A DNA stretch of 47,474 bases, taken from assembly GCA_019119495.1 (NCBI GenBank), contig DWWX01000013.1, positions 1 to 47,474 on the forward strand, given 5' to 3'. The notes beneath the pieces were generated by a model. The model did no database searches. It worked only from the letters and a program-made list of their open reading frames with translations, and had not been told where the DNA came from. Below are positions 7,083 through 29,848 of the stretch, in pieces. The DNA is from Candidatus Gemmiger stercorigallinarum (GTDB lineage Bacteria; Bacillota; Clostridia; Oscillospirales; Ruminococcaceae). Made by a program: the position numbers and the translations under genes. Each line of letters starts with the position of its first letter. Position 1 is the stretch's first letter.

Positions 7083-8258
7083 CTAGGCCGCGTCCGCCTG
7101 GCGGGAGACCGACAGCACAATGCCCATCTCTCCCAGCAGCATCATCAGGCTGGTGCCGCCGGAAGAGAAAAACGGCAGGCTGATGCCGGTGTTGGGGATG
7201 GTGTTGGTGACCACCGCGATGTTCAGCACCGCCTGCAGGATCACCTGCACAACAAAGCCCACCACCAGCAGCGCGCCGAACCGGTCCTTTGCCCGCACCG
7301 CAATGGACATGCCCCGCAAAAGCAGCAGCAGAAACAGCCCGATGACCACCGCCGCTCCCACAAAGCCCAGTTCCTCGCACAAAATCGAGAAGATAAAGTC
7401 GTTCTGCGGTTCGGGGACGTAGAGGTATTTCTGCCGGCTGTTGCCCAGCCCCAGCCCGGCAATGCCGCCCGACGCGATGGCGTACAGGCTTTGGATGGTC
7501 TGGTGGCCCTCACCCAGGGGGTCGGCAAAGGGGTCCTGCCAGCTGGCCAGGCGGTCGGCGGCGTAGGGCACCAGCTCCGGCAGCAAAATGACCGCCGCCG
7601 CAATGGCCGCCGCAGCCGCCGCCCCCGCCAGCCCGAACCACTTGAGCCCGGTGCCGCCCACAAACATCAATACCGCCCCGATGCCCAAGATCAGCAGCGT
7701 GCCGGACAGGTGCGGCTCCAGCAGCATCAACACCGTGACCGCGGCCAAAATGACCGCAAAGGGCAGCACCCCGGTGGTAAAGGTTTTCATCCTGTCATGG
7801 TTGAGCGAGATGATGTGCGAAAATACCAGCACCACCGAGAATTTGGCGATCTCGCTGGGCTGCAGCGTGCCCAGGCCGGGCAGCACGATCCACCGCTTGC
7901 AGCCGTTGTATTCCGGCATGAACAGCACCACCGCCAAAAGCAGCAGCGAAAGCCCCATCAGCGGCCAGGCCAGCCTGTGCCAGACGTGGTAATCCACAAA
8001 GGAGGCCGCGTACATGGCCGCCACCCCCAGTGCCGCAAACAGCAGCTGGGGGCGGATGTAGGTGTAGGCGTCGCCCCGGCGGTACAGCGCCACCGCGTAC
8101 CCGGCCGAGAACAGAACCACCAGCCCCAGGCAGACCAGCGCCAGCAGTATGGCCAGAAACGGCAGATCCAGCGCCGGGGCGGCGCGCAGCCGGCGGCGCA
8201 GGCCGGCCAGCGCACGGCCGGGACCGCGCCGGGGCTGACGGTAGACGGTTTTTTCCAT
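7083..8258 (-). CDS. ftsW: SEDS-family peptidoglycan polymerase, FtsW/RodA
   Basis: Integral membrane glycosyltransferase that polymerises lipid II into glycan strands with a partner class B penicillin-binding protein, at the septum (FtsW) or side wall (RodA). 391 aa, family length, about ten membrane segments. SEDS signatures are present: GLGTLQPSEIAKF near residue 130, the extracellular loop with WQDPFADPLGEGHQTIQSLYAI around 245, GLGLGNSRQKYLYVPEPQNDFIFSILCEELG around 270-300, and PNTGISLPFFSSGGTSLMML near 365. The last two favour FtsW/SpoVE. The start at 8258 follows AAAGGGGG. It is a separate unit from the SpoIID chimera upstream, from which it is divided by a strong terminator. Confidence 0.94.
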   Translation of the reverse strand: MEKTVYRQPRRGPGRALAGLRRRLRAAPALDLPFLAILLALVCLGLVVLFSAGYAVALYRRGDAYTYIRPQLLFAALGVAAMYAASFVDYHVWHRLAWPLMGLSLLLLAVVLFMPEYNGCKRWIVLPGLGTLQPSEIAKFSVVLVFSHIISLNHDRMKTFTTGVLPFAVILAAVTVLMLLEPHLSGTLLILGIGAVLMFVGGTGLKWFGLAGAAAAAAIAAAVILLPELVPYAADRLASWQDPFADPLGEGHQTIQSLYAIASGGIAGLGLGNSRQKYLYVPEPQNDFIFSILCEELGFVGAAVVIGLFLLLLLRGMSIAVRAKDRFGALLVVGFVVQVILQAVLNIAVVTNTIPNTGISLPFFSSGGTSLMMLLGEMGIVLSVSRQADAA

Positions 8259-8408: not shown

Positions 8409-11400
8409 TCAATAGGTGGTCAGCGTGGTGCCAGGGTAGTAGTGCTGCAGGATCTGCTGGTAGGTCCAGCCGTTGTTGGCGTAGCCCACCGCGCCCCACT
8501 GGCTCATGCCGACGCCGTGGCCGTAGCCGTACACGTCAAAGATAAAGCAGTCGCTGCCGGCATCGTAGGTGACGGTAAAGCACTGGCTGCGCAGGCTGCG
8601 GCCGTCCACGCTCTGGCCGGCCAGCAGCGTTTCGCGGAACCAGCTGCCGCGGCAGGTGGTGTTGGGGCCGCCGTCGGGGCCGATCTGCATCTGGCTGACC
8701 CAGCCGTACTGGTTGGCGGACAAAATCTTGAACCAGCTGTTGGGGTCCACGCCGCTCAGGTCAATGCCCAGCACATCCAGGATGCGCTGCTGCAGGGTGG
8801 CGCGGGAAAACCGGGCGGTGCCGGAGGTGGCGCCGTTGGTGTTCCAGTGGGTGGCGGTGCTCTGGTCGTAGGGGCTTTCCACCGCCTGCAGCCAGGCGCG
8901 GTCGTTGCCCCACACGTCCGCCGCCGACGCGGTGCCGGTGGAGGCCGACGCAAAGTAGGGGGTAAAGCAGACGTTGCCGTTATAGGTGATCAGCACATGG
9001 GCCACCTCCTGGGCGGCGGCCAGCGCGGCCGCGCCGGGGGTCGCGCCCGCCACCGAGGGGTAGCCCCCCTGGCTGAGGATCCAGCAATGGGCGGCCACGC
9101 ACTGGGCCTTGTAGGCCTCGGCGGGGGCGTTGGAGCCCAGCTCGTTCTGGGCGATCATGGCCAGGCAGGTCACCAGGTCCAGCGTCTGCTGGCTGCCGTT
9201 CATCGTCACGTTGATGGTCTCGCCGGTGGAGCCGCCGTTGTCCGACGGCGGGGCCGAGCTGCCGCTGTCCGTCCCGCCGTCCGCGGAAGTGTCCGGCGTG
9301 GGGGTGGGCGCGGGCGTCGCCACCACCTGGTCCAGCGGCACATCCTGCTCCGGCAGGGTGCCCTCGGCGCCCTGGTTCAGGTCGGACTCCGCCGCGCCGG
9401 CCTCGCCGGCCTTGTCGGTCAGGCCAGCCAGCAGCGCGTCCACGTCGTCCATCAGCGCGTCGGTCTGGTCCTGCAGTTCGGCGATATCCTGGCTCAGGTC
9501 GCCGGAGGATGTTTCCTCCCCCTGGGCCTCCTCGGCCTCGCTGCCGGGGGCGGCGGCGGGCTGGGCGGCGCTGGCGGTGGCGTACCATTCCAGCTGGGCG
9601 GCCAGCAGGCTGGCCGTGTCCGGCCGCTGGCTGCCGTCCTGGCAGCGGGCGGCGGGCAGCAGCGGGTCTTCCCGCTGGGTGATGGTCGCGGTGGCCAGCT
9701 GGGCGTCCTCGTTGTCCTCAATCACACGGCCGGTGACGCACAGGCTGATGCCGTCGGCGTCAGGGGCCGAGACCAGCGTCAGGAAGCGGGAGCCGTCGGT
9801 GACGGTGATGTCGGTGTCGTACAGCGAGCGCATCCGCGCGCCCAGCACAAAGTCCAGGTAATCGTCATAGGCCGCAAGCGCGCCGCCGGCGGGCACAAAG
9901 TAGCTGCCGCCCGCCTCGTCGGGGTCGCTGTAATAGACCGCCATCGTCTTGCAGCGGTAGGTGCCGTCGGCCAGGTAGAGGGTAAAGCCGGCGTTGTCCC
10001 GCATGGTCTCCAGGTCGGTCAGGCCGTCCAGCAGGGTGCTGTTCATCACAAGCACCGTGTTGCCGGCGCCGCCGGAAAGCCAGTTCCCGCCGGATAGCTG
10101 CGGCACGGCGGAGGCGGCGTCCTCCGAGGTGGCGCCGTCGGTGTAGACCAGCTGCCCCTCAAAGCCGGGGAAGGCCAGGTAGCCCGCCACGCCTTCCCGC
10201 TTGGCGGCGGCGTTGACCAGGTAAGCCTGCGCACTCTCGTCAAACTGCGCGGTGCCGTAGCCGCGGGCGGCGGGCTTGGCGCCCAGGCTGCTGCTGAAAT
10301 ACCAGTACAGCGCCGCACCGCCCACCGCCACCAGCAGCAAAAAGGCCACGAACATGGCCACCATGGTGCGCTGCTGGCGGCGCTCGGTCTTTTCGATGCG
10401 GGCCAGGCTGCGGTTTTTGGTCGGGTCGGTCACGTCGTCGGGGTCGTCGCTGTCATACAGGCGGCGGGCCGCGCTTTGGAAGTCTTCCAGGCTGCGGGGC
10501 GGGGCCGAGTCGTCGGCCTGGCGGGCGGCGCGCACCGCCTCCGGGTCCAGGCCGGTGGTCAGGTCCGGCAGGTCGTCGTCCAGGATCGAGTGGGGCGGCT
10601 CCTGCCGGGCCGGGGGCTCGGCGGGGCGGCGGCCGCTGCCGGTGCGCACCGCACGGTGGGCCGCGGCGTTGGGCGCGCCGGCGGTCTCAAAGTCCATGGG
10701 CGGCTCGGCCCGGGGCGGGGTGCGGGCGCCCTTTTGCGGGGCGGCGCCGGGCTCTGCGTCAGGCTCAAAGGTGATGCTGCCGGTCAGCGGGGAACCTCCG
10801 CGGGCGGGCGGCTGCGCGTCGGTGTCCCAGTCCCGCTCGGCGGCGGCCCAGGCGGAGGCGGCCACCGTGGCGGCGTTATCCGGCGTGGGGCGGGCGGCCT
10901 TTTTGGGGGGCTGTTCCTCCCCCACCGAGGCCGCCACCGCCGCCGCGGCGGCTTCCGCAGCCGCCTTGGGGATCTGGGCGGTGTCAAAGTCCAGCATCGG
11001 CTCAAAATCGGCCTTGCCGGCCTTGCGCCGGCGTCGCAGCGAAAAGCGGGAGGTATCCCCCGGTTTCGGCTGCCCCGCCCGCGAGACCAGCAGCAGCGGG
11101 TGCTCGTGTCCGGGGCGGAACTGGATGGTTCCGGCGGTGTTTTTCAGCCCCAGGGCGCGGCGGCGCACCAGATCCAGCAGGTTGTTGCCGATGGCGGCGT
11201 CGGTCAGCTCAGGGCTGACGGCGCAGGCCACCGCGCCGCGGCGGTCGCACAGCAGCACAAAGGGGGCCTGGCCCACGGTGGCCGGCATGTAACAGACCGC
11301 ATAGTCCGCCTGCCCCACCGACAGCGCCAGCTGGGCGCGGCCGGCGGCCGCCTGCACCACATCGCCGGGAAAGCGGTTGAGCAGGCCGGGCGGCGTGATG

Positions 11401-11819
11401 ATCTTGCGGGCGCTGACCGGGTCGGCGTAGGTCTGGGTGCCAAAGTCAAAGGCGGCCTCGCTGTGCTTCAGCGGCCGCAGCAGCGCCCCCACCAGCCGGC
11501 CGGTCGTCTCGTCAGTGGCCACCAGCAGGCGGCGCTTTTTCAGCAGGGCGTCCAGCGCAGCCTGGGCCAGGCTGGTCTCGCCGGTGGCATACAGGGCGTC
11601 GCCAAAGCGGGCGGCCAGTTTCTGCGCCCACTTGTCGCAGTGTTCGTCGGCCATTGCCTGCGTGGGGGCGGACGCCTGCACGCAGACGGCAAACTCGCCG
11701 TCCCGCTCCAGCAGGCGCAGGCCGGTACAGCCGTCCGCCTGCGCCTGGCGCAGGATGGCGGTGACCTCGGCCGATGTCAGGCCGAACACGCGCAGGATGC
11801 GCAGCTGTGTGGACACCAT
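8409..11819 (-). CDS. Multidomain membrane protein: decayed CinA-like module, sortase-like pseudoenzyme, SpoIID domain
   Basis: 1136 aa. Residues 7-78 resemble the CinA KH-like linker (LRVFGL... ARFGDALY). Residues 84-223 follow the CinA C-terminal amidase fold, but the catalytic AESCTGG is replaced by ATDETTG. A 260-residue Ala/Pro-rich linker leads to one membrane helix (about 486-508). Residues 530-702 follow class B sortase layout (VAGYLAFPGFEGQLVY; TLYLADGTYRCKTMAVYYSDP; YDTDITVTDGSRFLTLVSA), yet the GHN His is M/N and the TLSTC Cys is Ala. After an acidic coiled linker (about 700-868) comes a SpoIID domain (868-1136) with the NELGSN glutamate, YKAQCVAAH and YGYGHGVGMSQWGA. The SpoIID part should cut glycan strands outside the membrane; the two decayed modules probably bind or scaffold. 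Last gene after thiI and cinA. Confidence 0.85.
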   Translation of the reverse strand: MVSTQLRILRVFGLTSAEVTAILRQAQADGCTGLRLLERDGEFAVCVQASAPTQAMADEHCDKWAQKLAARFGDALYATGETSLAQAALDALLKKRRLLVATDETTGRLVGALLRPLKHSEAAFDFGTQTYADPVSARKIITPPGLLNRFPGDVVQAAAGRAQLALSVGQADYAVCYMPATVGQAPFVLLCDRRGAVACAVSPELTDAAIGNNLLDLVRRRALGLKNTAGTIQFRPGHEHPLLLVSRAGQPKPGDTSRFSLRRRRKAGKADFEPMLDFDTAQIPKAAAEAAAAAVAASVGEEQPPKKAARPTPDNAATVAASAWAAAERDWDTDAQPPARGGSPLTGSITFEPDAEPGAAPQKGARTPPRAEPPMDFETAGAPNAAAHRAVRTGSGRRPAEPPARQEPPHSILDDDLPDLTTGLDPEAVRAARQADDSAPPRSLEDFQSAARRLYDSDDPDDVTDPTKNRSLARIEKTERRQQRTMVAMFVAFLLLVAVGGAALYWYFSSSLGAKPAARGYGTAQFDESAQAYLVNAAAKREGVAGYLAFPGFEGQLVYTDGATSEDAASAVPQLSGGNWLSGGAGNTVLVMNSTLLDGLTDLETMRDNAGFTLYLADGTYRCKTMAVYYSDPDEAGGSYFVPAGGALAAYDDYLDFVLGARMRSLYDTDITVTDGSRFLTLVSAPDADGISLCVTGRVIEDNEDAQLATATITQREDPLLPAARCQDGSQRPDTASLLAAQLEWYATASAAQPAAAPGSEAEEAQGEETSSGDLSQDIAELQDQTDALMDDVDALLAGLTDKAGEAGAAESDLNQGAEGTLPEQDVPLDQVVATPAPTPTPDTSADGGTDSGSSAPPSDNGGSTGETINVTMNGSQQTLDLVTCLAMIAQNELGSNAPAEAYKAQCVAAHCWILSQGGYPSVAGATPGAAALAAAQEVAHVLITYNGNVCFTPYFASASTGTASAADVWGNDRAWLQAVESPYDQSTATHWNTNGATSGTARFSRATLQQRILDVLGIDLSGVDPNSWFKILSANQYGWVSQMQIGPDGGPNTTCRGSWFRETLLAGQSVDGRSLRSQCFTVTYDAGSDCFIFDVYGYGHGVGMSQWGAVGYANNGWTYQQILQHYYPGTTLTTY

Positions 11820-11930: not shown

Positions 11931-13241
11931 TCAGATGTCCAGCGCGGCCGGGTCGGCCAGGCAGCGGTCCGCCGGCGCGGCCAGGGCATCCGGCAGGGGC
12001 AGGTCCAGCGCCATGCGGCGCAGCAGGTCCAGCGCGTACAGCGCCGCCCGCGTGCGGATGATGTCCCGCTCGCGGTAGCCGCCCAGCGTCAGGCGCATCA
12101 GATACACGCGGTTTTTGCGGGCGTCGCAGCCGCCCAGGTAGACGGTGCCCACCGGCTTGCCCGGCAGCGCGCCGCCGGGGCCGGCAATGCCGGTCAGCGC
12201 CACGGCCAGCTCGGCGCCGGAGACCCGCTGCGCCCCCAGCGCCATGGCCGCCGCCACCGGGCCGGAAACCACGTTGTATTGCTCGATCAGCGCCGGGGCC
12301 ACGCCCAGCAGTTTTGCCTTGGCGGCCTCGGCGTAGGTGACAAAGCCGTAGCCGAACACCTCGCTGGCGCCAGGCACATTGGTCAGCTTTTCCGCCACCA
12401 GGCCGCCGGTGCAGCTCTCGGCCGCGGCGGCATGCAGCCCACGTTCTTTCAGCGCGCGGACAACGGTGTATTCCAGCGCGGGCACGTCCACGTCGTAGGC
12501 GGCGTCGCCCAGCCGGGCGCGGAGCCTGTCCAGCATGGCGCCGCAGTCGGCTTCCGCCTGGGCGGCGGTTGCGGACCTGGCGGTGACGCGGATCTCGCTC
12601 TCGCCGGTCTTGCAGTAGATGGCGACGGTGGGGTTGGCGCTGTCAAACAGGTCGCCCACCTTCTCGGCAATGCGGCTCTCGCCCCCCAGCACGTGCAGCG
12701 TCTTGCTGTGGATGGTGCAGTTCTGCCGCCGCTCCAAAAGGGGGCGCACCTGCTCGGCCCACATGGCCTTCATCTCCCGCGGGACGCCGGGCATCAGGGC
12801 GGCGCAATGGCCGTTTTCATCCTCGAACCAGGCGCCGGGGGCGGTGCCGTGGGCGTTGGGCAGCTTGTGCCCCCGCACCGGCACCATGGCCTGTTTGCGG
12901 TTGTTTTCGGTGGGGGTGCGGCCGGTGCGGGCAAAAAAGTCCACGATCTTCCGCCATTCTTCCGGGTCAAAGGCCAGCGTATCGCCAAAGGCGTCGGCCA
13001 CCGTTTCTTTGGTCAGGTCGTCGGCGGTGGGGCCAAGCCCGCCGGAAAACACCAGCAGGTCGCTGCGGGCGCGGGAGGTGGCCACCAGCTCTTTCAGGCG
13101 GGCGGCGTTGTCCCCCACCACATGCTGGTGCAGCACGGTGATGCCCAGCTCGGCCAGTTCCCGGCTCAAAAACTGGGCGTTGGTGTTGACGATGTCGCCC
13201 AGCAAAAGCTCGGTGCCAACGCAGATGATCTCGGCGGTCAT
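11931..13241 (-). CDS. cinA: CinA-family NMN deamidase / nucleotide-binding protein
   Basis: 436 aa, complete. Residues 4-170 are a MoCF/COG1058 domain (MTAEIICVGTELLLGD, FSGGLGPTADDLTKE), a KH-like linker lies at about 180-248, and a CinA C-terminal domain at 256-412. That domain carries AESCTGG (274-280) and TGIAGPGGALPGKPVGTVY (350-368), the NMN amidohydrolase signature. The family recycles NMN to nicotinate mononucleotide and hydrolyses ADP-ribose-like compounds; in some genomes it is competence-linked, but nothing here shows that. The upstream-extended frame is rejected because ATG 13241 follows AAGGAGGG and matches the family start. It sits between thiI and the 1136-aa gene, whose N-terminus is a diverged copy of its last two domains. 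Confidence 0.95.
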   Translation of the reverse strand: MTAEIICVGTELLLGDIVNTNAQFLSRELAELGITVLHQHVVGDNAARLKELVATSRARSDLLVFSGGLGPTADDLTKETVADAFGDTLAFDPEEWRKIVDFFARTGRTPTENNRKQAMVPVRGHKLPNAHGTAPGAWFEDENGHCAALMPGVPREMKAMWAEQVRPLLERRQNCTIHSKTLHVLGGESRIAEKVGDLFDSANPTVAIYCKTGESEIRVTARSATAAQAEADCGAMLDRLRARLGDAAYDVDVPALEYTVVRALKERGLHAAAAESCTGGLVAEKLTNVPGASEVFGYGFVTYAEAAKAKLLGVAPALIEQYNVVSGPVAAAMALGAQRVSGAELAVALTGIAGPGGALPGKPVGTVYLGGCDARKNRVYLMRLTLGGYRERDIIRTRAALYALDLLRRMALDLPLPDALAAPADRCLADPAALDI

Positions 13242-13296: not shown

Positions 13297-14490
13297 TCAC
13301 ATTTCCGGGTCGTCGCCAATATGGATGGGGATCTTTTCCACATTGGCGGCGGCTTCCCGCTCCAGCGCGGCCAGGCCGGGCATGGCGGCCTCGGCGGCCT
13401 CGATCTCGGCCAGGGCGGGCCGGGTCTTGGGGTGGGGCGGGGTGAAGATGGTGCAGCAGTCCTCGTACGGCTCGATGGAGGTCTCAAAGGTGCCGATCTC
13501 GCGGGATCTGGCGACGATCTCGGTCTTGTCCATGCCGATCAGCGGGCGCAGCACCGGCAGGTCCTGGGCGGCGTCGGTGCAGGCCAGCGCCGCCAGCGTC
13601 TGGCTGGCCACCTGGGCCAGGCTTTCGCCGGTGACCAGCGCCTGCATGTCGGTGGTGGCGGCCACCAGGTTGGCGATGCGCAGCATGCTGCGGCGCATCA
13701 GCACGGTGAACAGCACGTCGGGGGCGTTGTCCCGGATGTACTCCTGGGGCTTGGTGTAGGGCACCACAAACAGCATGCAGTTGCCGGTGTACTCGCTGAC
13801 CTCCCGCGCCAGCGCCACCACCTTGAGCTTGGCGCGCAGGCTGGTGTAGGGAGGCGAGGCAAAATGGATGTGGTGCAAAGCCAGGCCGCGCCGCGCCATG
13901 TACCAGGCGGCCACCGGGCTGTCGATGCCGCCGGACAGCAGGTTCAGCGCGCGGCCGCTGGTGCCCACCGGCAGGCCGCCGGGGCCGGGCACCTTGGGGC
14001 CGTGGATGTAGGCGCCAAAGTCCCGGATCTCCACCATGACCTCCAGCTGAGGGTTGTGCACATCCACCCGCAGGTGGGGGTGCTTGGACAGCAGAAAGGC
14101 CCCCAGCTCCCGGCAGAGTTCCGGGCTTTTCATCGGGAAGGTCTTGTCCGACCGCTTGGCCTCTACCTTAAAGGACCTGATGCCCCGCAGCGTCTTGCCC
14201 AGGTAATCTTCGGCGGTCTGGCAGATGGCGGCAAAGTCCTTTTCGCAGACGGCGGCACGGCTGAGCCGCGCAATGCCGAACACCTTGGAGACGCGGCGGA
14301 ACGCCTCGTCCATGTCGATGTCCTCGTCCAAAGGCTGGATGTACAGGGTGCTTTGGGCGGTGCGCAGCTTGAACTCGCCCAGGTCGGCCAGACGGGTGCG
14401 GACCGCCTTGGTCATTTTCGCCTCGAAGGTGCCGCGGTTCAGGCCCTTGAGGGCCATTTCGCCCTGGAAGGCCATGATGATCTCTCTCAT
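13297..14490 (-). CDS. thiI: tRNA 4-thiouridine synthase ThiI
   Basis: Transfers sulfur to uridine-8 of tRNA (and in some species supports thiazole synthesis). 397 aa: ferredoxin-like and THUMP domains (about residues 1-165; GEMALKGLNRGTFE), then an ATP pyrophosphatase domain with the PP-loop LLSGGIDSPVAAWYM near residue 180. There is no C-terminal rhodanese domain, as usual in Bacillota, so sulfur would come from a dedicated cysteine desulfurase; one is encoded immediately upstream. An in-frame TTG at 14499 abuts the AAAGG site, so the ATG at 14490, 9 bases from it, is chosen. First gene of the unit thiI-cinA-chimera. Confidence 0.96.
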   Translation of the reverse strand: MREIIMAFQGEMALKGLNRGTFEAKMTKAVRTRLADLGEFKLRTAQSTLYIQPLDEDIDMDEAFRRVSKVFGIARLSRAAVCEKDFAAICQTAEDYLGKTLRGIRSFKVEAKRSDKTFPMKSPELCRELGAFLLSKHPHLRVDVHNPQLEVMVEIRDFGAYIHGPKVPGPGGLPVGTSGRALNLLSGGIDSPVAAWYMARRGLALHHIHFASPPYTSLRAKLKVVALAREVSEYTGNCMLFVVPYTKPQEYIRDNAPDVLFTVLMRRSMLRIANLVAATTDMQALVTGESLAQVASQTLAALACTDAAQDLPVLRPLIGMDKTEIVARSREIGTFETSIEPYEDCCTIFTPPHPKTRPALAEIEAAEAAMPGLAALEREAAANVEKIPIHIGDDPEM

Positions 14491-14630
14491 TTGTTTCAAC
14501 CTTTTCTGTTGGATTTGTTCGGGAAGCCGCAGGCCGGCGCAGGCCGCTTTTCTGCGATGCGCCGGACATTTTTTGTCATTTTAGCGGCACGCAGGCCCCG
14601 TTGTGTTTACGATATGTATTTTTTCAAAAC

Positions 14631-14696: not shown

Positions 14697-15854
14697 TCAG
14701 ATGTGCTGCAGCTCGGCCAGGCCGGCGCGCAGAGCGTCCAGCAGGGCGTCCACGTCGGCCTCGTCGTTATCGGCGCAGAAGCTGACCCGCAGGGCGGTGG
14801 CCACGGCTTTCCCGTCGCAGCCCATGGCCAGCAGCGTGTGGCTGGGTTCGCCCTTGTCGCAGGCGCTGCCGCCGGAGACATAGATCTGCCGGTCGCTCAA
14901 ATAGCTGATGAAGGTCTGGCTGTTGACACAGTTTGTGGAAAAGTTAAGCACCTCCGGCACGGCGTTTTGCGGCGAATGGATGGTGATGCCGGGCAGCCCG
15001 GCCACCCCCGCCCGCAGCCGTGCGTTGAGGGCGGCGGCATTGCGGGCGCTGGCTTTCATCCGCTTTGCCCCCTGCTCGGCCGCCAGCCCCAGGCCGACGG
15101 CGTAGGGCAGGTTTTCGGTGCCGGGGCGGATGCCCCGCTCCTGATGGCCGCCCAGGTAGGGCGGGCGCAGGTGCTGGCGCTGGTTGTCGCAGAGGTACAG
15201 CGCGCCGATGCCCTTGGGGGCGTGCACCTTGTGGCCGGAGACCGCCAGCGTGTCCACGCCGGGCAGCTTTTTCATGTCCAGCGGGATGCGCAGCCAGGCC
15301 TGCACCGCGTCAATGTGCACGGCGGTGCGGCTGTTTTGGGCCTTGACCCCCGCCGCCAGCCGGGCGATGTCCTGCACCGCGCCGGTCTCGTTGTTGACGG
15401 CCATGCAGGCCGCCAGCACGGTGCTTTTGTCCACCGCGTCGATCAGTTTCTGCACGTCAAGGCTGCCGTCCGGCTCCGGCGGGATCTCCACCACAGTAAA
15501 GCCCCGGTCTTTCAGCGCCCGGATGGGCCGCTGGACGCTGGGGTGCTCAAACCCGGTGGTGACGATCTTATTGCCCCAGCTCTGCCGGGGGATGGCCGCG
15601 CCCAAAATCGCCAGATTGTTGCTCTCGCTGCCGCAGGCGGTAAAGTAGATCTCGTCTTTGGCGCAGCCAAGTGTTTTGGCGATCTTGCCGCGGGCGGCCG
15701 AGAGTTTGTTCTCGGCCAGGATGGCCGGCTCGTACAGGCTGGAAGGGTTGGCCCAGCAGCTGCGCATGGCGGCGTTGACGGCGTCGGCCACCGCCGGGTC
15801 CACCAGGGTGGTGGCGGCGTTGTCCAGATAATGCAGGTGGGGGTCGGTACGCAT
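14697..15854 (-). CDS. Cysteine desulfurase, NifS/IscS-like
   Basis: PLP enzyme converting cysteine to alanine and an enzyme-bound persulfide for thiolation and Fe-S assembly. 385 aa. LHYLDNAATTLVDPAV at the N-terminus, PLP contacts TACGSESNNLAI and NNETGAVQD, the Schiff-base lysine in VSGHKVHAPKGIGALYL, and the active-site cysteine in YVSGGSACDKG are all present. The start at 15854 (MRTDPHLHYLD) follows ACGAGG; the longer frame adds 39 residues unlike the family. It lies directly upstream of thiI, the usual Bacillota pairing in which it feeds sulfur to ThiI, although a separate promoter lies between them. Confidence 0.95.
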   Translation of the reverse strand: MRTDPHLHYLDNAATTLVDPAVADAVNAAMRSCWANPSSLYEPAILAENKLSAARGKIAKTLGCAKDEIYFTACGSESNNLAILGAAIPRQSWGNKIVTTGFEHPSVQRPIRALKDRGFTVVEIPPEPDGSLDVQKLIDAVDKSTVLAACMAVNNETGAVQDIARLAAGVKAQNSRTAVHIDAVQAWLRIPLDMKKLPGVDTLAVSGHKVHAPKGIGALYLCDNQRQHLRPPYLGGHQERGIRPGTENLPYAVGLGLAAEQGAKRMKASARNAAALNARLRAGVAGLPGITIHSPQNAVPEVLNFSTNCVNSQTFISYLSDRQIYVSGGSACDKGEPSHTLLAMGCDGKAVATALRVSFCADNDEADVDALLDALRAGLAELQHI

Positions 15855-15996
15855 GGTGGATGGCCTCGTTTTCAAATGGGTTTCGGCGCGTGCGCCGCGG
15901 CAGACCGCGCAAAGCGGCGGGCAGCCTGCCACAGCAGGAATGTCCCGCGCCCCGGCATTGCCGGTTGACAAAAATAAGCAAAGAAATACAGATTAA

Positions 15997-27459: not shown

Positions 27460-28301
27460 GCATCCGGACCATTTCTGCCGCCGCCGTCACCGATGCGGTG
27501 GAGCGGCTGTGCATCCAGGCAAACACCTGCCTGCCCGCCGATGTGAAAGCCTCGCTGGACGCCGCCGAGGCGGCCGAGCCTTGGCCGCTGGCGAAAGAAA
27601 CGCTGGGCCTTTTGCAGAAAAACCTCTGCACGGCGGCGGACAAGGAGCTGCCCATCTGCCAGGACACCGGCATGGCCTGCGTTTTTGTGGAGCTGGGCCG
27701 GGACGCCCGCATCGACGGCGACCTGCAGGCCGCCATCGACGAGGGGGTGCGCCGCGGCTACGAGAAGGGCTACCTGCGCAAAAGCATCACCGCCGACCCG
27801 CTCAAGCGGGTGAACACCGGCGACAACACCCCCGCTTTTGTGACGCTGCACCTGGCGGAGGGCGACCGCTGCCGCATCACCGTCGCCCCCAAGGGCGCCG
27901 GCAGCGAGAACATGAGCCGCCTGGCCATGCTAAAGCCCGCCGACGGCGTGCAGGGCGTCAAGGACTTTGTGCTGGACACGGTGCGCCAGGCCGGGGCCAA
28001 CCCCTGCCCGCCCATCGTGCTGGGCGTGGGCATCGGCGGCAGCTTTGACAAGTGCGCCGCCCTGGCCAAAGAGGCCCTGCTGCGCCCGCTGGACCAGCCC
28101 AACCCCGACCCCTACTACGCCGCGCTGGAAGCCGAGCTGAAGGACACCGTAAACGCCATGGGCATCGGCCCGCAGGGCTTTGGCGGCCGCACCACCTGCC
28201 TGGGGGTGGCCATCCGGCAGATGCCCACCCATGTGGCCTGCCTGCCGGTGGCGGTCAACGTCAGCTGCCACGTGACCCGCCGGGCCAGCGCGGAGCTGTA
28301 A
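27456..28301 (+). CDS. Class I fumarate hydratase, alpha subunit (N-terminal domain)
   Basis: Iron-sulfur hydratase interconverting malate and fumarate, or tartrate and oxaloacetate in the TtdA group. 281 aa. Cluster cysteines are in LPICQDTGMA near residue 70, GIGGSFDKCAALAKEALLRP near 190, and GPQGFGGRTTCLGVAI near 245. The ATG overlaps the malic enzyme stop by four bases, so translation is coupled. The beta subunit gene follows, separated by a 70-codon gene. Fumarase is favoured over tartrate dehydratase because malic enzyme shares the operon. The 4Fe-4S cluster would be oxygen-sensitive, in keeping with an anaerobe. Confidence 0.93.
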
Positions 28302-28337
28302 CATCCCGGACAACAAACCCGCCAAGGAGGTACCGCC

Positions 28338-28550
28338 ATGGCCCTGAAAGGCAACCCGAACATCGACATTCCGCTGGACGGCGTGGGCGCCCAGCCGGAC
28401 GCCGTGCGCCGCAGCCGCGCCCCCATCGACATCCCGCTGGACGGCCGCGGCGACGACCCGGCGCAGATCAGCCGGTTGGAGCTGGAGATGGTCAACCGCC
28501 ACCACGCCGAGGTCAAGGCGCTGTACCGCCGCGCACAGAAGGGGGAATAA
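28338..28550 (+). CDS. Small protein with duplicated IDIPLDG motif, in fumarase operon
   Basis: 70 aa, not recognised as any known family. The motif IDIPLDG occurs twice (residues about 9-15, NIDIPLDGVGAQPD, and 30-36, PIDIPLDGRGDDPA), separated by 21 residues. A basic-acidic helix follows (ISRLELEMVNRHHAEVKALY). There is no signal or membrane segment. Expression is supported by an AAGGAGG site 8 bases before ATG, tight spacing (36 bases after fumarase alpha, 3 before beta) and matching codon use. Position between two subunits of one enzyme suggests an assembly factor, a small extra subunit or a regulator of the Fe-S fumarase; that is inference only. Confidence 0.75.
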   Translation: MALKGNPNIDIPLDGVGAQPDAVRRSRAPIDIPLDGRGDDPAQISRLELEMVNRHHAEVKALYRRAQKGE

Positions 28551-28553
28551 GTT

Positions 28554-29123
28554 TTGCAGTATCGTTTGCAGACGCCGCTTTGCAAAGCGGACCTGTCGCC
28601 GCTGGCCGCAGGCGACACGGTACTTTTGTCCGGTGTGGTGTATACCGCCCGCGACGCCGCCCATGCCCGCATGATGGAGCTTTTGGACCAGGGGCTGCCC
28701 CTGCCCTTTGCGCTGCAGGGCGCGGCCGTCTATTACGTCGGCCCCACGCCGGAGCGCCCCGGCTGCGCCATCGGCGCGGCGGGCCCCACCACCGCCGGCC
28801 GCATGGACAGCTATACCCCGCGGCTGCTGGACCTGGGCCTTGCCTGCATGATCGGCAAGGGCAAGCGCAGCCAGGCGGTCAAGGATTCGGTGGTCAAAAA
28901 CGGCGCCGTCTACCTGGCCGCCATCGGCGGGGCCGGCGCACTGATGGCCGGCAGTGTCAAAAGCTGCCAGGTCGTCGCCTGGCCGGACCTGGGCTGCGAG
29001 GCCGTGCGCCGCCTGGAAGTGGAGAGCATGCCGCTGACGGTGCTGCTGGACGCCCACGGGGGCGACCTGTACCAAAGCGGCCCGGCCGCCTACCTGGCAG
29101 CACAGGCTGCCGGGGCACGATGA
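28554..29123 (+). CDS. Class I fumarate hydratase, beta subunit (C-terminal domain)
   Basis: 189 aa, partner of the alpha subunit. The family core GCAIGAAGPTTAGRMDSYTP followed by LLDLGLACMIGKGKRSQ is diagnostic of Fumerase_C/TtdB proteins, supplying substrate-binding residues around the cluster. Initiation appears to use TTG at 28554, 7 bases after GGGGGA; the next in-frame Met is internal to the domain, so a rare start codon is indicated and may lower translation relative to alpha. The stop overlaps the sortase start by four bases. Confidence 0.92.
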   Translation: MQYRLQTPLCKADLSPLAAGDTVLLSGVVYTARDAAHARMMELLDQGLPLPFALQGAAVYYVGPTPERPGCAIGAAGPTTAGRMDSYTPRLLDLGLACMIGKGKRSQAVKDSVVKNGAVYLAAIGGAGALMAGSVKSCQVVAWPDLGCEAVRRLEVESMPLTVLLDAHGGDLYQSGPAAYLAAQAAGAR

Positions 29124-29848
29124 GCCGGCGCAGAGGCGGCCTTGCCGTGGGCATCGCGGCAGGGCTGGCGGTGGTGTTTGCCGCCGCGGCGATCTGCCAG
29201 ACCCTGCGCCTGCGCGCGATGGGCCGGCAGGTGGATGCCCTGACCGCCCAGACGGCGGACCAGCAGCAACAGCTGGATTCCCTGCAGCAGCAGCTGGCCG
29301 AGGCCCAGGCCGCCCGCGAGGCCGCCGAAGCCGAGGCCCAGGCCGCCCTGCGCAGCGCCGAGCTGGCCCGCGCCGCCGAGGCCAAGGCCGACATTGCCGA
29401 CGGCGACCAGATCGGCCGCGTATGGGTGGAGGGCACCCAGGTGGACTGCCCGCTGTACTGGGGCGACACCGGCAGCCAGTTCCGCAACGGCGCGGGGGCT
29501 CATTCCACCGACGGCTGCGTGCTGCCCGGCGAGAACGGCACCGTGTTTGTGGGCGGCCACACCGACAGCTGGTTTGTGGACCTGAAATCCGCCCAGATCG
29601 GCGGCATCATCCACCTGGAAACGCCCTGGGGCACCTTTTCCTACCAGATCACCGAGACCAAGGTGATCGGCGAGACCGAGATCGACCAGTGCCGCTGGGG
29701 TGCCGAGGAGCCCAGCTGCATCCTGTACACCTGCTACCCCTTTGGCATCCAGACGCCCACCACCCAGCGGTATCTGGTTTACGCCGACCCCATCGAGACC
29801 GACGCCGGCGGCGTTGTCCCCGACGAGCTGCGCACCGCCGAAAGCTGA
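29120..29848 (+). CDS. Class D sortase with an intact active site
   Basis: 242 aa. A signal-anchor helix (about residues 8-26) is followed by a coiled coil of about 60 residues rich in Gln/Ala/Glu (32-92) and the catalytic domain (95-235). The active site is complete: His147 in VFVGGHTDSW, Cys205 in ILYTCYPFG, Arg217 in TTQRYLVYA; CYPFG fits class D. It would join LPxTG-type proteins to the cell wall. No substrate with a sorting motif is in the window. The ATG overlaps the fumarase beta stop (ATGA), so it is translationally coupled to a metabolic gene. The long coiled coil between anchor and enzyme is unusual and may set reach or oligomer state. Confidence 0.9.
   Translation: MSRRRGGLAVGIAAGLAVVFAAAAICQTLRLRAMGRQVDALTAQTADQQQQLDSLQQQLAEAQAAREAAEAEAQAALRSAELARAAEAKADIADGDQIGRVWVEGTQVDCPLYWGDTGSQFRNGAGAHSTDGCVLPGENGTVFVGGHTDSWFVDLKSAQIGGIIHLETPWGTFSYQITETKVIGETEIDQCRWGAEEPSCILYTCYPFGIQTPTTQRYLVYADPIETDAGGVVPDELRTAES

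Follow-up and report, generated by a model that had tools for sequence, protein, structure and literature searches.

A predicted membrane-anchored SpoIID protein with non-catalytic CinA-like and sortase-like parts in Gemmiger

Class B sortases work with a catalytic His, Cys and Arg, and the serine of the AESCTGG motif is important for the deamidase activity of CinA. In the Thermus CinA dimer the KH and deamidase domains share a two-fold axis, and the same report gives the roles of Tyr-296, Lys-301, Thr-340, Arg-377 and the KH Glu-187 used below (PMC4246079). The SpoIID of C. difficile, whose catalytic glutamate is E101, cuts only amidase-stripped strands, as shown with SpoIIP (PMC6221140); a SpoIID that acts outside sporulation has been described at the septum of chlamydiae (PMC6635528). 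Here we analysed a stretch of 47,474 nucleotides from Candidatus Gemmiger stercorigallinarum (assembly GCA_019119495.1, contig DWWX01000013.1, positions 1 to 47,474; hereafter the window), in which a single gene joins a CinA-like part, a sortase-like domain and a SpoIID domain. The product is most likely a lytic transglycosylase anchored in the membrane, whose CinA-like part, on the cytoplasmic side, is constrained but no longer catalytic. The gene is laid out as follows.

8409..11819 (stop included), minus strand: fused gene, 1136 amino acids (aa), ATG at 11819, stop at 8409-8411
11586..11819, minus strand: KH-like CinA domain, residues 1-78, Mg-binding Glu of GIGES gone
11145..11585, minus strand: fold like the NMN (nicotinamide mononucleotide) deamidase PncC, residues 79-225, active site gone
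10365..11144, minus strand: linker, mostly Ala/Pro/Asp-rich, residues 226-485, cytoplasmic by topology
10296..10364, minus strand: single membrane helix, residues 486-508, basic side first (N-terminus inside)
9594..10283, minus strand: class B sortase-like domain, residues 513-742, His and Cys lost, Arg kept
9216..9593, minus strand: variable outer linker, residues 743-868
8412..9215, minus strand: SpoIID/LytB lytic transglycosylase domain, residues 869-1136
9141-9143 and 8490-8528, minus strand: SpoIID sites, Glu893 and GYGHGVGMSQWGA respectively

The initial annotation, made from the letters of the DNA, had proposed a CinA-like KH and amidase fold without AESCTGG, one membrane helix, a class B sortase layout without its His and Cys, and a SpoIID domain with its glutamate and motif. 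Each of these was borne out: the AlphaFold model of the N-terminal part matches CinA and AESCTGG is absent, the sortase fold was matched with both residues absent, and the SpoIID_LytB model TIGR02669 scored over its cut-off (111.8 vs. 83.3, expectation value (E) 5.5e-32) with E893 and GYGHGVGMSQWGA present. Residues 486-508 were the sole helix candidate standing out in the hydrophobicity scan (2.61 in a 19-residue window, next best 1.31). Basic residues flank this helix on its N-terminal side, so the CinA-like part is expected inside and the rest, including SpoIID, outside.

The SpoIID domain gave a profile match to the SpoIID structure 5i1t (E 2.7e-24). The NCBIfam CinA model NF001813 matched residues 5-175, spanning the KH domain and the first part of the amidase (E 4.6e-12, under the cut-off); since the match covers model positions 179-350 of 414, the N-terminal COG1058 part is missing from the fused protein. 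The Pfam scan gave traces only, CinA_KH (0.0042) and SpoIID (PF08486, 0.0047), both under the cut-off (18 vs. 23 for PF08486). By sequence alone the sortase match was weak (NCBIfam srtB, 0.23), and a profile of the Gemmiger sortase region reached sortase B in the PDB at 2e-6. The many antibody chains lower in that list, and a Pfam match of the fused protein to Pup (0.018), were taken as chance. Identity with the sporulation SpoIID was ruled out by the spore_II_D model TIGR02870 (99.9 bits vs. an equivalog cut-off of 234.75).

Structure prediction and fold comparison had been set beforehand, and both predicted folds matched the families named, CinA and class B sortase. AlphaFold was given the window sequence together with sequences from related loci, 33 in all for residues 1-266 (predicted local distance difference test (pLDDT) 90.4, predicted template modelling score (pTM) 0.86) and 31 for residues 513-742 (pLDDT 89.6, pTM 0.89). 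In Foldseek searches of the PDB with residues 1-266, CinA chains took ranks 1-6 (E 2.9e-15 for the best, 6mr3, to 4.8e-12) and CinA-family chains filled ranks 1-21, with template modelling (TM) scores to the query of up to 0.68. With residues 513-742, class B sortase chains took ranks 1-13 (E 2.3e-9 to 5.6e-8, TM 0.52-0.61).

Residue states were read from an automatic alignment, in which divergent sequences may be misplaced. The KH Glu-187, the Thr-340 loop and Arg-377 (Thermus CinA numbering) were each lost in 33/33 same-genus fused sequences, and the serine of AESCTGG was replaced by Glu in 32 and by Ala in one; Tyr-296 was kept in 24/33 and Lys-301 in 7/33. As the residues that bind the nucleotide or act on it are mostly gone, the old pocket of the Gemmiger CinA-like part is probably no longer a nucleotide pocket. 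The initial annotation had coupled a cytoplasmic ligand-sensing half to an extracellular wall-cutting half; the topology is supported, whereas the ligand sensing is not supported and is weakened by the loss of most pocket residues in these 33 sequences. In the sortase-like domain of the Gemmiger clade His and Cys are absent and Arg is kept. The SpoIID Glu and GHG His were invariant in 28/28 same-genus sequences, and among 112 distinct open reading frames (ORFs) of relatives (113 rows, one locus being present twice) the Glu was found in 112 and the His in 111. The lone exception, L098:7232-8758 in genome G035, has the C-terminal GHG part ahead of the N-terminal part, as if circularly permuted, and this apparently rearranged frame adjoins a CinA-sortase fusion.

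Median ratios of non-synonymous to synonymous substitution (dN/dS; Nei-Gojobori, 324/378 same-genus pairs) were 0.22 for SpoIID, 0.31 for the CinA-like part, 0.51 for the linker, 0.53 for the sortase-like part and 0.67 for the outer linker, rough values whose ranking is what counts, as median dS is high (0.65-1.18) and the pairs are non-independent. By this ranking the dead CinA part is closer to SpoIID, the live enzyme, than to the linkers and is clearly constrained; over 33 sequences its columns average 77% identity and 71 of them are invariant. The case for constraint on the sortase-like part (22 invariant columns in 31 sequences) is weak.

The fused gene was matched in all 34 other same-genus genomes searched, ruling out that the fusion is confined to the source assembly, and the search for the architecture in related genomes also found relatives in the wider order. 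Full-length frames were found in 28 of the 35 genomes (window included), full-size frames in two more (G021, G028), and pieces or cut frames in five (G001, G002, G017, G023, G032). Frames were read from stop to stop, and their lengths slightly overstate the proteins. By contig name, 28 of the 32 named members of this set are Gemmiger (including G. formicilis ATCC 27749 and G. gallinarum DSM 109015), two Subdoligranulum, one Faecalibacterium and one Oscillospiraceae only; genera outside Gemmiger, and families, are labelled by number here (g134, f15 etc.). The Gemmiger sortase-like profile matched 155 of 297 family genomes, ordinary sortases among them, and its strongest matches outside Gemmiger (E 1e-59 to 1e-74) fell in six more genera (g33, g37, g45, g50, g82, g134). 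A SpoIIP amidase was found in 34/35 same-genus genomes and sortase-family matches in 35/35. The window itself holds a second sortase-family ORF (28052-29848, plus strand; Pfam Sortase 1.1e-15 at 29426-29791).

The window locus is the worn-down Gemmiger state of a wider CinA-sortase-SpoIID module. Loci of the order were read with profiles built for this work, and some were hand-picked rather than random. The order CinA/PncC, class B sortase, SpoIID paralogue is the same whether the three are separate genes (L131, L174, L178; also L169, where further long frames overlap those of sortase and SpoIID), CinA-sortase fusions adjoining SpoIID (L104, L106, L185), a sortase-SpoIID fusion adjoining cinA (L170) or triple fusions (L079-L081, L089, L091, L092, L094, L096, L119 and others), and the CinA and sortase are often live in these relatives. 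In L089, CinA_KH, Sortase and SpoIID of Pfam are all over the cut-off in one frame, and the sortase region, with His and Cys present, matches solved sortase B at 5.6e-36; single frames of L092 and L096 carry three CinA models plus SpoIID. The 1194-aa frame of L119 (G091) has the deamidase Ser-Tyr-Lys-Thr, the sortase His-Cys-Arg and the SpoIID Glu, with a weak COG1058 part, and would be the best candidate for a live form.

To avoid bias, counts were made on 79 loci (L101-L179) chosen by SpoIID match, leaving aside 18 places that had entered the set of loci before, mostly via sortase matches, and three contig-split and 11 lower-scoring ones. On the same strand, 58 had a sortase, 44 CinA/PncC, 40 both, and 14 all three in one ORF. 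No CinA/PncC or sortase neighbour was found at any of 20 control loci with sporulation-type SpoIID (L201-L203 and L216 being shortened by contig ends), 13 of which come from genomes that also contributed a module locus to this analysis; this rules out that any SpoIID has such neighbours. Across the order, CinA was matched in 133/147 genomes, in a frame above 600 aa in 8 of these 133 (families f4, f9, f15, f23); all eight long frames carry the sortase His, Cys and Arg, with SpoIID within the stretch read only for the two of f15. Outside the order but within the class, 134/150 genomes matched CinA with a longest frame of 471 aa, ruling out that CinA fusions are general in the class.

Several loci showed other arrangements. 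SpoIID is preceded on its strand by three or four sortase ORFs, each carrying His, Cys and Arg, in L097, L099, L103, L113, L126, L129, L158 and L194. A Hydrolase_2 wall hydrolase with an SH3 domain lies between sortase and SpoIID at L154:5632-6792, and L162 and L175 have ORFs of similar size in the same place. The long frames of L144, L176 and L179 (1428, 1550 and 1081 aa) carry SpoIID of this type at their ends, and neither a CinA nor a sortase part was recognised in them.

CinA copies were scored with Pfam in 47 hand-picked genomes, not a random sample. A high-scoring copy in a frame of at least 750 aa was the only one in 14 genomes, all 14 with the deamidase Ser, Tyr, Lys and Thr, although a second copy could be missed in several incomplete ones (G271 67%, G324 70%, G226 79%, G035 84%). 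In 15 genomes a high-scoring copy elsewhere accompanied a long frame whose CinA part scored weakly (E 3e-36 to 1e-4), and in 16 the sole copy scored high and lay in a short frame; G090 had only a weak fused CinA and G125 none. The copy of G130 counted as free sits in a 612-aa frame, itself unread. Two high-scoring amidase copies in one genome were found in 0/47, and the fused copy scored high only where it was alone. The Gemmiger clade, with a dead fused copy and an intact cinA or PncC adjoining, fits this pattern of one live copy.

In the SpoIID tree, this SpoIID forms a paralogue group apart from sporulation SpoIID. The window groups with g134 (support 99), and the window, L079-L081, L082 and other Gemmiger-like fusions form a set of 18 (support 96); the fork joining L079-L081 to the Gemmiger clade has 94, just under the 95 mark. 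The fused and separate states need 12 changes on this tree, and well-supported branches force at least four for the separate state. L079-L081 have a live CinA and a dead sortase; the sortase may thus have been the first to decay, followed by the fused CinA once a free cinA had arisen. In the CinA tree, the six dead copies cluster together (support 100) and the Gemmiger clade has its free cinA genes in another cluster (99); the live ancestor of the dead copies is not identifiable from this tree owing to a long branch.

The genes around the fusion are the following.

14697..15971, minus strand: class V aminotransferase, judged a NifS-like cysteine desulfurase from its similarity and position, conserved neighbour
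13297..14499, minus strand: thiI, conserved neighbour
11931..13241, minus strand: intact cinA, 436 aa, with COG1058, KH and PncC with AESCTGG, 111 bp upstream of the fusion
7083..8258, minus strand: FtsW/RodA/SpoVE family gene, downstream of the fusion

A cinA gene lies upstream in 32/32 same-genus loci (gap 18-133 bp), with thiI in 31 and nifS in 30. The FtsW/RodA/SpoVE gene is on the same strand in 15/32 same-genus loci, some of which end before it, and in 0/79 loci of other genera.

We propose a SpoIID wall cutter held by a dead CinA dimer, serving as scaffold or dock, and by a sortase spacer, for wall remodelling in growing cells, a reading that we judge about evenly balanced between right and wrong. 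The protein would cross the membrane once, with the outer SpoIID domain as its sole working enzyme, cutting glycan strands once an amidase has stripped their stem peptides. The CinA-like and sortase-like parts would descend from live enzymes, encoded beside or fused to SpoIID in relatives in the same order, and both would have become non-catalytic in the Gemmiger line. The CinA-like part would persist as a scaffold for dimerisation, either with a second copy of itself or with the intact CinA of the adjoining upstream gene; the shared two-fold axis of the Thermus dimer suggests that a dead CinA part could still pair. The sortase-like part would be a spacer or a wall-facing binding module, and the two parts would keep paired SpoIID domains at a fixed distance from the membrane, acting in wall remodelling of growing cells and not in spore engulfment. 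In favour of the proposal stand the domain folds, the lost residues, the invariant SpoIID glutamate, the gene neighbourhood, the spread and the constraint on the CinA-like part, all of them shown above, together with the SpoIIP amidase of the genus; SpoIID activity here, the dimer scaffold, its partner, the spacer role and the cell-cycle role are what we infer. Several observations weigh against this proposal. The sortase-like domain evolves at about linker speed (0.53 vs. 0.51 and 0.67). At 17/79 SpoIID-family loci there is no CinA/PncC or sortase nearby on the same strand (some are cut by contig ends), and this kind of SpoIID may work without them. The sulfur-transfer genes thiI and nifS lie on the same strand at 56/79 and 54/79 of these loci; with neighbours this frequent, neighbourhood alone is no proof of joint function. 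In the nearest genus, g134 (L076-L078), the free upstream gene is PncC alone, not a full CinA.

The main rival to the scaffold or dock is passive decay, in which operon neighbours were fused by loss of stop codons, and the tethered CinA and sortase decayed as functionless passengers once a second cinA existed. The constant CinA-sortase-SpoIID order of the fused ORFs read would fit such an accident, as would the 12 changes of state in the tree, the lack among the 47 genomes of any in which a fused and a free CinA amidase both score high, and the live CinA paired with a dead sortase in L079-L081, which group with the Gemmiger clade. Against a functionless passenger stand the median dN/dS of the dead CinA (0.31, compared with 0.22 for SpoIID and 0.51-0.67 for the linkers), the column identity and invariant columns of this part, and its matches in all 34 other same-genus genomes and six more genera; we regard this explanation as possible, though unlikely.

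Somewhat less probable still, in our opinion, is a cytoplasmic sensor, in which the CinA-like part binds a nucleotide or small molecule and signals through the helix to open or close SpoIID; in relatives with a live CinA, the signal would be the pyridine-nucleotide state. The topology, with the CinA-like part inside and SpoIID outside, suits a sensor, and so do the constraint on this part, its new invariant residues (e.g. H119, E121, D125, P151-D153, G183-Q184) and the 14/47 chosen genomes in which a high-scoring fused CinA with Ser, Tyr, Lys and Thr is the sole copy. The nucleotide-holding residues are mostly lost in Gemmiger, however, and a single helix with a linker of ~260 residues would be a poor relay of conformational change. 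A related and equally doubtful idea is an order-wide membrane module that links CinA/PncC pyridine-nucleotide recycling in the cytoplasm with two outer activities, the cutting of the wall and the anchoring of proteins; the non-catalytic CinA half of the Gemmiger protein would dock the live neighbour CinA, so that the state of NMN or adenosine diphosphate (ADP)-ribose controls SpoIID. A hidden enzyme, with the sortase-like or CinA-like part having gained a new activity such as an amidase that prepares denuded strands for SpoIID, seems very improbable: both parts have invariant residues and the L154 operon places a wall hydrolase between sortase and SpoIID, but the sortase-like part is weakly constrained, and inspection by eye revealed no known catalytic pair in it.

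A CinA-sortase-wall hydrolase fusion recurs in several families of one bacterial order. The range from separate genes through live fusions to dead fusions offers natural experiments on the association of CinA with wall enzymes, as well as a handle on the role of SpoIID outside sporulation. Profile scores could lead live fusions to be named plain CinA or plain SpoIID in annotation. In the open-licence literature, judged by titles and the beginnings of abstracts, we found no description of a CinA-sortase-SpoIID fusion or module and no paper on CinA, SpoIID and sortase jointly; to judge by these searches, the joining of a cytoplasmic nicotinamide adenine dinucleotide (NAD)-salvage enzyme with a sortase and a wall hydrolase is undescribed. 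Passages of PMC10868615 name sortase and SpoIID only as separate losses. A group including Faecalibacterium is reported in PMC7924749 to be without SpoIID orthologues under rules that use domain architecture, and such rules may have passed over the fused forms.

Compared with CinA, the ADP-ribose pyrophosphatase/NMN deamidase (6mr3; Thermus 4ct8), the fused part shares the KH and deamidase folds and their order (E 4.6e-12), but is membrane-tethered and has lost the COG1058 domain, the Ser, the Thr-340 loop, Arg-377 and the KH Glu-187. With class B sortases (2oqw, 4lfd, 5b23) the fusion shares the fold and the C-terminal Arg, whereas its domain is without His and Cys and sits between a membrane helix and SpoIID. 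The domain with the catalytic Glu is common to the SpoIID of the SpoIIDMP engulfment complex (5i1t, 5txu) and to the chlamydial division SpoIID (PMC6635528); unlike the SpoIID of SpoIIDMP, the fused SpoIID belongs to a separate paralogue group, scores far under the cut-off of the sporulation model and stands on a CinA-sortase stalk. The triple-fusion and operon relatives (e.g. L119, L089, L079, L131) have the domains and order of the window gene, with the CinA and/or sortase residues intact.

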